In this document: in pieces, positions 2,767 to 11,655 of the stretch
Layout of the letters: the number at the start of each line of letters is the position of its first letter
Numbering within the stretch: the first letter of the stretch is position 1
Assembly: GCA_003225075.1 (NCBI GenBank)
Contig: QIAP01000089.1
Span: forward strand, 1-38,615
Source: Acidobacteriota bacterium
GTDB taxonomy: Bacteria; Acidobacteriota; Terriglobia; Terriglobales; Acidobacteriaceae
Direction of reading: 5' to 3'
DNA length: 38,615 nt
The notes under the pieces: model-generated
What the model was told of the DNA's origin: nothing
The model's database searches: none
The model's input: the letters and a program-made list of their open reading frames with translations, nothing else
Made by a program: the position numbers and the translations under genes

Positions 2767-5007
2767 ATGCGGAAACTTGGAATTGCGATTGGAATCATCA
2801 TTGTTCTGGTCATCGTGGCGGCTGTGGCCGTGCTGGCGCTGGTGGACGTGAACAAGTATCACGGGGTGGTACAAAGCCAACTCGAGCAGCGGCTGAACCG
2901 GAAAGTGACGCTGGGCGAGATGCACCTCGGTATTTTTCCGCCGCGGTTCCAAGTCCAGAACCTGGCCATTGCGGATGATCCGAAATTCAGCACTGGAAGT
3001 TTTGTACAGGCGCAACAAGTGGATGTGTCGGTAAAGCTGATGCCACTGTTCCACCACTCGGTGGAGATCAATTCGTTGGACCTACAACGACCAACAGTTG
3101 AGCTGGTGCAAAATACACAAGGCGTGTGGAATTTTGCGTCGCTGGGAAAGCCGACGGAATCGACCACGGGGGGAGCTAATCCAAATCCACCCGCGCGGCC
3201 GGCGGGAACGAATCAGCCTGCGAGCGGAGCGCCCCAGGGTAGTACATCCGGATCGAGCAGTTCCGGAAATGAATTCTCGCTGGGCAAACTGACCATTAGC
3301 GATGGACAAGTCGCGCTCACCGACCAGGCGAAAAGAAGTCCACGAGCGGTTTACGATCATATTAATTTGACGCTTACGGATTTTGCGCCTAATAAGCCTT
3401 TTTCCATTGATGCGGCAGTGCATTTGCCCGGTTCCGGAGCGGAGCAAATTCATCTCCAGGGCGAAGGGGGACCGATAGCAACGAACAATTTTGGCATTAC
3501 CCCGTTTCGCGGCACGCTGGATTTGAAGGGAGTTGGCATTGCTGATCTGCAAAAATTTCTTCAGACCGGGGCGTTGGCCAACACCGACGGCAGCTTGTCC
3601 GGCAAGACCGACATCAATAGTGAAAATGGAAAGATTGCAGCCAAGGGACAGATGACAATACAGAGTCCGCGAGTACGCGGGCTTGACGTGGGTTATCCGA
3701 TTACGGCGGACTACGATCTAAGTGATGACGTTAACAGTGATTTACTGCGGATCAACAAAACCACGCTGAAGCTGGGGGAGACACCGCTGTTCGTCAATGG
3801 GACGGTGAACCTGAAGCCGACGCCGGCGCAACTGGATGTCAATTTAAAGGCAAATGATGTTTCCATTGCGGAAGCAGCACGCCTGGCGGCAGCCGCCGGG
3901 GTGGCGTTCTCTCCAGGCACCACGGTTAACGGACGGGTGAATGCTGATATCACGGCGCGCGGTGCGGCGGATAAACCTGCCCTAACTGGGACCATTGCCG
4001 GCCGTGATGTTCAGGTAACAGGGAAAGATATTCCGCAGCCGGTACAGGTTAAGGCGATCAATCTGGCGTTGACACCGAACGAAATTCGCTCTAACGACTT
4101 CAATGTGACATCGGGTGGAACGAACATCGCGGCGAGATTTGCGCTGCGGCAATACACCTCGAAGTCTCCGCTGGTGGATGCGGCGGTGCAGGCGCCGAAA
4201 GCGGCCCTGCCCGAGGTTCTGGCTATGGCCAAGGCGTGGGGGGTAACCGGGCTGGACAAAATCAGTGGTGCAGGAACACTAAGCCTGGATATGCATGCTG
4301 CGGGACCATTGCAAACCATTGGCTCGAACGAAATCCTGAGAGCATTGAATGGCAATTTGAACACCAACTTCATGAATGTGCGTTTGGCGGGTACGGACAT
4401 CAGTCACGAACTGGCTTCGATTGCAAAATTCATCAGACCGGGTGGGGACAAAGATCAGGGGTTCACCAACATTCTAAAAATGACGGGTAATGTCCTGGTG
4501 AGAAATGGGGTAGCCCAGACCAACGATCTGCAGGCGCTGCTTGATCTGGGAAATGTCGGGGTGGCGGGAACTGCGGACCTGGTGACCCAGGCGCTTAATC
4601 TGCGCGTGACCGCGGTGCTTTCGAAAGCTGCCAGCCAGCAAGTGGGCGGAACGGGAATTGGCGGATACATGAACACGGCTCTCTCCAACAACCAGGGCGA
4701 GATCGTGATTCCGGCGATCGTTACCGGTACTTTTCAGCATCCCATTTTCCAGCCCGATGTACAGAAGATCGCTCAGATGAGGTTGAAGGGATTGTTGCCG
4801 AGCGCCGACAACCCTAACGGCGCCGTTACCGGAATGCTGGGAAATCTGTTGGGACAAAAGACAGGAAATCAAAACCCACAACAAAAACAGCAACAGCAAC
4901 AGAATCCAGGACAAAATGCAGTGCAGCAAGTGCTGGGTCTTTTCGGGGGCAAGAAGCAACAGCAGCAACAGCAGCAACAGCCGCAGCAGCAGCCGCCACA
5001 GAAGTAG
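2767..5007 (+). CDS. AsmA family envelope protein with Gln-rich tail
   Basis: The product is 746 residues. An N-terminal transmembrane helix (residues 5-27) is followed by the AsmA N-terminal domain, recognisable by VDVNKYHGVVQSQLEQRLNR and the LGEMHLGIFPPRFQVQNLAI segment. A Pro/Gly/Ser-rich linker lies near residues 125-165, and a long beta-rich AsmA C-terminal region ends near 670. AsmA proteins are inner-membrane-anchored and extend into the periplasm; several act in phospholipid transport or outer-membrane assembly. The last ~50 residues are very Gln-rich, coded by CAG/CAA repeats, and look disordered. The start ATG has a good GGAGGA site about 5 bases upstream. The gene appears monocistronic, with a strong hairpin after its stop. 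Confidence 0.85.
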   Translation: MRKLGIAIGIIIVLVIVAAVAVLALVDVNKYHGVVQSQLEQRLNRKVTLGEMHLGIFPPRFQVQNLAIADDPKFSTGSFVQAQQVDVSVKLMPLFHHSVEINSLDLQRPTVELVQNTQGVWNFASLGKPTESTTGGANPNPPARPAGTNQPASGAPQGSTSGSSSSGNEFSLGKLTISDGQVALTDQAKRSPRAVYDHINLTLTDFAPNKPFSIDAAVHLPGSGAEQIHLQGEGGPIATNNFGITPFRGTLDLKGVGIADLQKFLQTGALANTDGSLSGKTDINSENGKIAAKGQMTIQSPRVRGLDVGYPITADYDLSDDVNSDLLRINKTTLKLGETPLFVNGTVNLKPTPAQLDVNLKANDVSIAEAARLAAAAGVAFSPGTTVNGRVNADITARGAADKPALTGTIAGRDVQVTGKDIPQPVQVKAINLALTPNEIRSNDFNVTSGGTNIAARFALRQYTSKSPLVDAAVQAPKAALPEVLAMAKAWGVTGLDKISGAGTLSLDMHAAGPLQTIGSNEILRALNGNLNTNFMNVRLAGTDISHELASIAKFIRPGGDKDQGFTNILKMTGNVLVRNGVAQTNDLQALLDLGNVGVAGTADLVTQALNLRVTAVLSKAASQQVGGTGIGGYMNTALSNNQGEIVIPAIVTGTFQHPIFQPDVQKIAQMRLKGLLPSADNPNGAVTGMLGNLLGQKTGNQNPQQKQQQQQNPGQNAVQQVLGLFGGKKQQQQQQQQPQQQPPQK

Positions 5008-5047
5008 CGTGAGGTCCGGAATTCGGGCTGCTAGTTGAAGTTCCGGC

Positions 5048-5078
5048 GCTAGCTTCTGGCATGAAGCCAGAAGCTAGC
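5048..5078. repeat. Perfect 13-bp inverted repeat (hairpin) after asmA-like gene
   Basis: GCTAGCTTCTGGC (5048-5060) and its exact reverse complement (5066-5078) flank a 5-base loop ATGAA. No T-tract follows on either strand, so it is not a classic intrinsic terminator. It could be a dispersed REP-like palindrome or an mRNA 3' stabiliser. No second copy was found in this window. Confidence 0.6.
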
Positions 5079-5214
5079 CGGCCCGGTATTGCATTTTCGT
5101 AGCCAGCGGACCGTGGTCTGCGACTCAAGTTTTTCTCTTCTTCATTCTGCGATTCAAAACTTCCGTCGGTATGTTCTAATAGCGAGTCTTTCCTGAAAGT
5201 TCACAACGTGTGAG

Positions 5215-9652: not shown

Positions 9653-10787
9653 CTAAGGGTAAAACGGCGTCCGGTCGAAAAGGTCGTGTGGCTTAAACAT
9701 AAAGCCCGTCCACATGACCAGCGCAACGCCATGCCAGTAACCATTCACAATCTCGCCGTCCTCATCGCGGGGATGATGGTGAATTGACCCCTTGTACCAC
9801 AGGACAACGTCAGTATCGGCGGCCGGTTCAGGGGGCGTGATGTAGGACAGCAGATCTCTTGCGCTCATTTCCGTCCAGTTATAGTGGGTGACCCAGAAAT
9901 CCTGCTGAGTGAACGCCTCCAGATGGCGGGATAAACCTCCGGTAGGCAATGGAATAAGCTGGTACTCAGTCTGGTCGCCTTTGCCGTTTTTTAGGAATTT
10001 GTCGCTGACATTCAGAGAGTTGAAGGCATGGGGATCCCATGGCAGCCCCGCCTCAAACAGTGAACACCGGCTCCACGTCGGTGGCAGAGGGACCAGGCAG
10101 AGATTCTATGTGGGTACCCAGGGCTACGGAATCGTTCGGCCAGCCGTTGAGATCAACATCCAACCGCCAGATGGGGTTGTGCATGTGCGTTTCCCAGGGG
10201 TCGCTGGGAGAGTTGGAGGAAGTTGCCCCCACCCGACCGATGACTACGCCATCATCGCGGAAGGTCCATTCAATCACATAGTTGTACCAGGCTGCGGCGA
10301 GTGCCGACCACAATATTAGTTCCTCGCCGCGACGGACATCATTGTCAGACTTCCACGCCAGTCCCCGGTCATGCACCTGTTTGCACACATTTCCGCCAAA
10401 GACAGTGCCCCCAACCGCAGCGGGACAGTCCTGCGCACCTACGGGCGTCAGAGGGAACATATACTCCACATCGTAGTAACGGGGCGAGCCAGTGTGATAA
10501 GGAACGAAAATCTCCGAGAGCCGAGCATCCCAGAGGAGGAAAAGCCAATTCGAGGTGGGCGACTTGCGGAAATAAGCCCAACGGATCAGCAAGCCGTTTC
10601 CCGGAACTGTATCCCAGCAGAGGCGCCAGTGGGTAACCTCGGGACCGGCGGTGGGAAAGCTTTGGTCGACGAGATTGGCGCCCGAACAGGGCATCCACGG
10701 AGGCGGCGTTTGGGCGGAGGCCAACAAAGAGAGGACAATCTCAGCGAGTAGCAGGAAGAAGACTTGGCGGGCGCAGGAGGATTTCAT
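9653..10787 (-). pseudogene. Copper amine oxidase catalytic domain, one-base frameshift
   Basis: Two minus-strand frames, 10787-10053 and the frame ending at 9653, join into one 377-residue protein if one base is removed near 10053-10057 (GTTTGAG on the minus strand). The first part has a signal peptide (residues 1-25), the candidate catalytic-base Asp106 (RYYDVEYMF), Cys121/Cys135, the candidate topaquinone Tyr168 in WYNYVIEWTF and copper ligands H201/H203 (HMHNPIWRLDVDLNG). The second part has the third-His region IHHHPRDED and the C-terminal FKPHDLFDRTPF block typical of the family. The ATG at 10787 has AGGAAG upstream. It is a copper/topaquinone enzyme that oxidises primary amines to aldehydes, likely periplasmic. 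Usual length is 600-700 residues; here the N domains are encoded by the preceding gene. Frameshift may be real decay or a sequence error. Confidence 0.78.
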
Positions 10788-11417
10788 TGCTGTTTCTTCC
10801 TTTCCACGTAGACTCGCTTAGCCGTCAAGTCGGCGATGATCATGGGACCACTAAGAAAATCCCGACCACGACGAAACGCCAACTGGAGACATCGGTGCTT
10901 GAAACAAGGGTCATGTTCATCGCTAGACCGGACCCTTGCGTAAAGCCAGCTGAAAAGCGTCAGCGAGATCCTCCGTCGTCATGGGAACCTGGCTACCGTC
11001 CAGACGTATCACTTGCTCCACGGCGGCACTCGCAAGATTGACGAGGGCCCGAGCACCGACTTCCCCTTGGGGTTGGAACAGCACGACTTCGGCGTGACGC
11101 ACGGGTCGGGCCGACTCAGTCGCGGACTCGGGCTTTAGAGCCACGACTTGGACCAGGACGAGCCGCACGTTGGCCTCACCAACGAGGTCCCGGACTCTCC
11201 TATCGGACCGCGCCAGCCGTTCCGCTACTGCTTTGTCCTCCTTATCGAGAGGGTTGAGAGGAAGGGCTTTTTGTTCTGGGCGGGGCTGCTGCTGGTTGGG
11301 TACCGATTGAGCTGAGCCAAAAACGAAACCGAAAAGGGCCAAACTCAGGATGACCAAAGCTCGAAGAGTAAATGCGGTCCTACAAGAGCGAGAAATAAGA
11401 TATCGCAAGAAGGTCAC
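10784..11417 (-). pseudogene. Copper amine oxidase N2/N3-domain-like partner, one-base frameshift
   Basis: The first frame (11417-10923) gives 164 residues: a signal peptide ending near residue 36, then PLNPLDKEDKAVAERLARSD and AEVVLFQPQGEV followed by VNLASAAVEQVIRLDG and PMTTEDLADAFQLAL, a pattern like the small N-terminal domains of copper amine oxidases. It stops at TAG 10925-10923. The +1 frame continues with HDPCFKHRCLQLAFRRGRDF and IIADLTAKRVYVERKKQQ and stops at 10784, exactly in an ATGA overlap with the catalytic gene. Removing one base near 10926-10945 therefore restores a 210-residue protein. The start is GTG 11417 with a full AGGAGGT site 6 bases upstream. The domain match is from pattern recognition and moderate; the restored frame and coupling are seen directly. 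Confidence 0.65.
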
Positions 11418-11655
11418 GCGGCACCTCCTATCACGTACTCATCTATACGGGCGCAGATCCCCACATGGGAGTTTACCCTTCTCTGGCAGAATGAGTGACT
11501 GCGTTTTCGATACCTTCGCGCTTGCAACTGATCTTCCTTACACTCACGAGGTGTTAGGCAGATTCAGCTATCCATCTACGTCTTGATGGTGAGGCAGTTA
11601 TCGTGTGACGGACAATTTTCTTTAACCTCGGTGATCGTTCATCCAGCGATTCCCC

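Follow-up and report, generated by a model that had tools for sequence, protein, structure and literature searches.

The window analysed here, 38,615 nucleotides long, is a whole contig (QIAP01000089.1) of the 4.79 Mb genome of an Acidobacteriota bacterium, assembled in 259 contigs. Two adjacent genes, hereafter named A and B, lie on its minus strand. Gene A runs from a GTG start at 11417 to a TGA stop at 10786-10784, and gene B from an ATG start at 10787 to its end at 9653; the stop of A and the start of B share a 4-base ATGA overlap (10784-10787, minus strand). A likely ribosome-binding site was read from the sequence for each gene on the same strand, AGGAGGT at about 11423-11429 for A and AAGGAAG at 10796-10802, inside gene A, for B. 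Each gene is interrupted by one frame break. The frame of A is open from 11417 to 10926 and continues in a different frame to 10787, and that of B is open from 10787 to 10056 and continues in a different frame from about 10054 to 9656. Programmed frame shifting was ruled out as an origin of these breaks, since intact relatives read straight through.

The first piece of A (10926-11417, minus strand) comprises the GTG start, a hydrophobic leader, a domain resembling the small domain D2 of copper amine oxidases (CAOs) and the start of a D3-like domain. The second piece (10784-10936, minus strand), in the other frame, holds the end of the D3-like domain and the TGA stop, and covers positions 171-222 of the A7 profile. 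Both were matched by a hidden Markov model whose seed was seven intact A proteins from other bacteria (A-HMM; E 3.6e-14 and 2.1e-16, with E-values computed over the small set of open frames searched). In B, the first piece (10056-10787, minus strand) carries a leader and the first part of the CAO domain D4 (PF01179, E 8.8e-5, under the cut-off; B-HMM positions 12-255, E 6.6e-73). The second (9653-10054, minus strand), also in another frame, carries the last part of D4, including the third copper His (PF01179, E 5e-8, over the cut-off; B-HMM positions 259-390, E 8.7e-47). For A as for B, these matches to both pieces show that both frames are parts of a single gene; the pieces were nevertheless analysed separately throughout, and the frame breaks were left unmended. 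A crude hydropathy count recognised a hydrophobic leader at the N-terminus of all 14 A and all 17 B proteins scored, a set without L036, L037 and L078, and the threshold of the count was passed once more, inside the window A itself (1.89). A sequence-only reading of the window had described two reading frames joined by an ATGA overlap, each broken once and each preceded by a ribosome-binding site and opening with a leader; its coordinates and anatomy proved right, on the minus strand, with the leaders recognised by this crude count.

On sequence comparison, gene B is the CAO catalytic domain D4 (PF01179). A PF01179 match at E<=0.001 was obtained for all 18 rows of the B alignment (A8), two of which are the window pieces. 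These pieces also matched the NCBIfam primary-amine oxidase profile PRK11504 (at 348-408 and 536-627), and the B profile aligned with a canonical CAO profile with a probability of 99.95 (E 5.4e-38). The B protein of locus L071, which shares 50% and 55% identity with the two window pieces, was modelled with a pLDDT of 80; the model superposed on residues 231-623 of the Arthrobacter CAO structure 7wno (Z 32.1, rmsd 2.7, 322 residues aligned), and its D4 fold gave Z 31-33 to Arthrobacter entries.

The active-site residues of CAOs were found in the window B: Tyr97 (10499-10497), Asp106 (10472-10470), the quinone-precursor Tyr168 (10286-10284) and the copper ligands His201 (10187-10185) and His203 (10181-10179), with the third copper His in the second piece (9778-9776), all on the minus strand. 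The window row of the joint alignment is the first B piece, the third His having been read separately. In this alignment Tyr94, Asp103, Tyr167 and His203 (L071 numbers) are present in 67/67 rows, the Asp column being confirmed by profile alignment too. His201 occurs in 16/16 split, 4/4 B-only, 27/27 canonical and 14/20 fused rows, and His334 in the 15/15 split rows that reach that column, 4/4 B-only, 27/27 canonical and 13/20 fused rows (six Arg, one gap). The tyrosine of the VPY motif we take to be the conserved active-site Tyr of CAOs. The quinone motif departs from the consensus T-x-x-N-Y-D/E, given with the residue roles in the part of a CAO review drawn on here (PMC3382800). Tyr167 is followed by N, M, V or R in 16/16 split rows and by R in 20/20 fused rows, as against D or E in 27/27 canonical and D in 4/4 B-only rows. 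The Asn before the quinone Tyr is kept in 14/16 split rows, and replaced by Trp in the window, in L037 and in 20/20 fused rows. With this altered motif, topaquinone formation by the split B proteins is not certain.

Gene A is supported, by sequence profiles and a structural model, as a pair of small CAO domains, D2 and D3. The first hint was the match of its first piece to positions 7-114 of the 648 of PRK11504 (E 6.5e-5). This profile matched 4 of 14 A proteins at E<=0.01, in its N-terminal part in the two inspected. A profile of 14 A proteins aligned with 27 canonical CAOs over 107 columns (probability 94.6, E 6.7e-8; column-reversed control, probability 0.1, E 0.63), and with 20 fused chains of 536-612 aa over 155 columns (E 4.2e-10; reversed control, 0.46). 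The A-HMM recovered eight A proteins outside its seed (L074, L079-L082, L086, L036 and the window) and, at E<=1, 13 of the 20 fused chains (best 6.8e-10) and 5 of the 27 canonical CAOs (best L006, 5.7e-4). The Pfam N2 and N3 models matched 0 of 14 A proteins at E<=0.1, and a PDB sequence search with A gave nothing significant, with a CAO at E 2 after an unrelated chain at 0.58; the link between A and CAOs therefore rests on profiles and fold.

The model of the L071 A protein, built from 14 sequences (pLDDT 81, pTM 0.69), shows a helix and four strands, twice. In Foldseek, CAOs occupied the 50 best rows listed (best E 2.3e-7); in these rows the TM-scores, normalised by model length, were moderate (0.46-0.53) and the rmsd was 5.7-8.2. 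VIA-align placed residues 45-230 on residues 96-282 of 1qak (Z 10.6, rmsd 3.6, 168 aligned) and the same model on residues 12-193 of 7wno (Z 8.6, rmsd 3.8, 169 aligned). CAOs made up 44 of the 50 VIA-align rows listed; the other six were single-domain matches, the best of them a designed single cystatin-fold domain that tied with 7wno (Z 8.6 over 72 residues). In several E. coli rows the rmsd exceeded 14, and how the parts of A are placed relative to each other in the model is therefore not secure. With A on residues 12-193 of 7wno and B on 231-623, the chain break falls between residues 193 and 231 of the Arthrobacter CAO, which we take to be the D3-D4 boundary. The catalytic features that the sequence-only reading had seen in B were recovered as PF01179 and the active-site residues, with the caveat of the altered quinone motif in the window, W-Y-N (Asn before the Tyr to Trp, acidic residue after it to Asn), and its likening of A to the N-terminal CAO domains was borne out by the profile alignment (E 6.7e-8) and the fold.

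We then considered 19 B loci of one clade, each counted once, 18 with B in one open frame and the window with B in two pieces. Outside these 19 stand L033, a truncated plasmid B fragment with no A, and L037 of genome G331, a deeply divergent pair. A lies directly upstream of B in 15 of the 19 loci (L071-L076, L079-L083, L086, L087, L036 and the window), and outside the window, in 14 loci, both genes of the pair are open. Loci L071-L087 were picked by B only, so the presence of A was not built into this count. The 15 pairs belong to Planctomycetota (8), Acidobacteriota (4, two by kinship code), Pseudomonadota (2) and Nitrospinota (1), and the intact ones include those of Caulobacter sp. Root655 and Aquisphaera insulae, whose record titles do not name a MAG. 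The junction is a 4-base overlap in the window, L071, L072, L076 and L036, an 8-base overlap in L075 and a gap of 2 in L087, with gaps of about 15 to 200 in the eight Planctomycetota loci, where the start choice is unsure. Pairwise distances of A and B were correlated over 13 pairs (r 0.958; 0 of 5000 permutations as high), which shows shared descent and not contact. These results agree with the earlier expectation that the two genes are conserved together in relatives, and the search for intact pairs in other genomes that it called for yielded the 14 open pairs.

Among 13 genomes scanned with the A profile, eight have A, each with a recognised pair; the misses are four B-only genomes and G331, where A has diverged strongly (A-HMM E 0.029). 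In the four B-only loci (L077, L078, L084 and L085), A was found neither next to B nor elsewhere in the genome at E<=0.001. The B loci came from several searches. PF01179 matched in 34 of 396 genomes of the phylum. A B alignment search of 162 genomes of the class of G132 yielded matches in 39, mainly canonical or fused chains as judged by frame length. A scan with a three-row B alignment, one genome per species, gave 17 loci, L071-L087, among which L071, L076 and L084 lie on the same contigs as L035, L042 and L034, respectively. The second B piece of the window found no match as a query in the same contig collection, and the first matched in 0 of 60 relatives of the window genome, a single-protein query that reaches close relatives only. 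Searches with A, which scored at most 9 or 10 candidates per genome and give lower bounds, found at least one match in 294 Planctomycetota genomes, namely the centre genome itself, and at least two in 289 genomes of the class of G565, one being the centre and the other (E 9.4e-4) lying inside a 717 aa frame. The A/B pair seems to be rare, with a patchy distribution. No A was found in a plasmid collection, and B matches there were distant (about 22-26%), many of those listed being annotated as primary-amine oxidase. The truncated B fragment L033 (4922-5390), annotated as a hypothetical protein, lies near an IS110 transposase on a Methylocystis parvus plasmid, and is present in two plasmid records of this species.

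The gene environment of the pair was compared by eye in eight loci, with eight neighbours scanned in Pfam, and no third gene recurring across phyla was common to all eight. Upstream of the pair, L076 (match under the cut-off) and L087 have amidohydrolase-like genes that belong to different Pfam families. In L074 the pair follows a large gene encoding a DUF5117/DUF4953 Met-zincin (Pfam), and in L073, L083 and L086, also Planctomycetota, it follows a large gene that looks similar to that of L074. Downstream of the split pair of L036 (243-5875), in the same orientation, come genes for an HlyD protein and for an ABC exporter with a C39 peptidase, an arrangement like that of peptide export clusters. 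These neighbours hint at a peptide substrate at L036; those of the other lineages differ.

In a quick tree of D4 (67 rows), the 15 split and four B-only rows formed one clade (SH-aLRT 98), the 27 canonical rows their own clade (SH-aLRT 99), and the fused chains with L037 a third group (100 for the set). Fifteen of the 16 split B proteins are thus in a clade apart from the single-chain CAOs, the exception being L037. The rows of L036, L037 and the window sit on long branches, and their placement in this tree is unsure. The label "split" requires three changes on the tree, at least two of them by starred branches, so the gene layout was altered more than once. The changes so placed, judged from this D4 tree, would be the loss or gain of A on the B-only branches and the split pair L037 beside the fused chains. 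The L037 pair (3473-5166) is very divergent, has a GTGA overlap and groups with the fused chains, which suggests an independent fission or fusion. As the D4 tree is without a known root, fission and fusion are not distinguishable in it.

Single-chain CAOs (E. coli, Arthrobacter; PRK11504) share with A/B the D4 fold, the quinone-precursor Tyr, the three copper His, the catalytic Asp and the VPY Tyr, as well as the D2 and D3 folds found in A. The pair differs from them in having two chains with two leaders, an altered T-x-x-N-Y-D/E motif and a separate clade; the D4 of split B is also shorter, by about 25 residues before HxH compared with the E. coli CAO and by about 5 residues before the catalytic Asp compared with single-chain CAOs. 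A typical CAO is a homodimer of one 70-80 kDa D2-D3-D4 chain. With two genes instead of one chain, A/B is a variant of the family and not a typical member. The fused CAO-like chains (536-612 aa, 20 rows, L038-L070) resemble the pair in their A-like N-terminal part, B-like C-terminal part and alignable D4, but are single chains with W-Y-R in 20/20 and belong to a different clade, with the split pair L037 beside them. At each of two positions, 6 of the 20 have Arg in place of a copper His, and some members of the fused family may therefore be inactive. The D4-only CAOs (L077, L078, L084 and L085; about 370-460 aa) share the clade and active-site residues of split B; unlike split B, they keep N-Y-D in 4/4 and no A was found in their genomes. 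That 4 of 19 B proteins occur without A suggests that D4 alone may suffice in some lineages.

Regarding the window copy, genome G011 has about 100 bases between the STAS gene and dnaX, the place that the pair occupies in the window. G001, a genome of the same genus, has different genes in the 4 kb upstream of dnaX, and no A or B match there. The absence of the pair beside dnaX in both genomes indicates that it was probably inserted in the window lineage, and that it is dispensable. The nearest B to that of the window by tree path is L071, from another class of the phylum, and this position in the tree suggests acquisition of the window pair by transfer. The two frame breaks probably inactivated it: no comparable break was seen by eye in the other long open reading frames of the contig, which suggests decay of the pair. 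The breaks could instead be assembly errors in a pair that is functional in the organism, a possibility that we regard as real if doubtful. In its favour, each piece retains the sequence of the family as far as the break, and the family frame contains no further stop; on the other side stand the unbroken long frames of the same contig and the dispensability of the pair.

We consider it probable that A and B represent a CAO cut at the D3-D4 boundary and secreted, most likely as an A2B2 amine oxidase, whose assembly and activity we infer. A two-chain CAO variant is well supported as a gene family and an architecture, and its enzyme function is predicted. The proposal of a CAO split into two coupled secreted genes, made by the sequence-only reading, is in this respect upheld by the boundary, the leaders, the homology and the 15 of 19 paired loci. 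The two proteins would be translationally coupled and exported separately, and outside the cytoplasm they would most likely assemble into the A2B2 enzyme, a stoichiometry that stays presumptive. A could dock in the D2-D3 place of the single chain and wall part of the amine channel. Positions 155-156 of HPAO-1, which presumably lie in D3, are of interest here. They are amine channel positions according to the part of the literature drawn on (PMC3382800). By analogy with known enzymes, B would bind copper, convert Tyr167 to a self-made topaquinone and oxidise a primary amine to an aldehyde, ammonia and hydrogen peroxide, with Asp103 as the base.

It is unlikely that A is instead a helper descended from D2-D3, whether as an exported factor that assists the assembly or maturation of B or as a docking protein with a lipid anchor. 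Such a role would fit the 4 of 19 B proteins that do without A, and a lipobox-like Cys occurs in four A leaders (L072, L076, L079 and L087; pattern match only). However, A has both small domains in single-chain order (Z 10.6, 168 residues), and the fused chains with A-like and B-like parts in the same phylum point to a structural part. Equally improbable in our estimate is a copper protein that no longer oxidises amines and serves in binding or sensing, for which the changed quinone motif of 16/16 split B rows and the related fused chains with Arg for a copper His (6/20 at each of two positions) could speak. The six catalytic and copper residues are nonetheless kept in the split B rows reaching them, despite 25-55% identity to the L071 B, and this retention disfavours the drift of a dead enzyme. 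That frame shifts in a single-chain CAO gene produced two reading frames, and with them an artificial split, as the two breaks of the window copy might suggest, is hardly credible and already refuted, since the A/B boundary lies away from the breaks with its own stop, start, ribosome-binding site and second leader, and recurs in 14 other loci with open genes.

No description of a two-chain CAO was found among the best matches listed in the open-licence literature. A study of the Arthrobacter CAO (PMC4497604) reportedly purified a heterodimer of two monomers, one active and one inactive, which differs from the A/B split. In the part of a 2012 review drawn on here, every CAO with a characterised structure at that date is a homodimer of a single 70-80 kDa chain (PMC3382800), in line with the earlier statement that CAOs are normally single chains. 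On balance we favour a broader view, in which A/B forms a natural two-chain A2B2 class of CAOs, passed between phyla as a two-gene cassette; the acidic residue next to the quinone Tyr would have been lost along with the covalent D3-D4 link, and some lineages would have lost D2-D3 and kept working D4-only CAOs. The A proteins represent a family missed by the Pfam N2 and N3 models, and the split B proteins offer natural variation of the quinone-forming motif. A natural system in which D2-D3 is separate or absent would allow a direct test of the role of these domains in folding, in the amine channel and in substrate choice.
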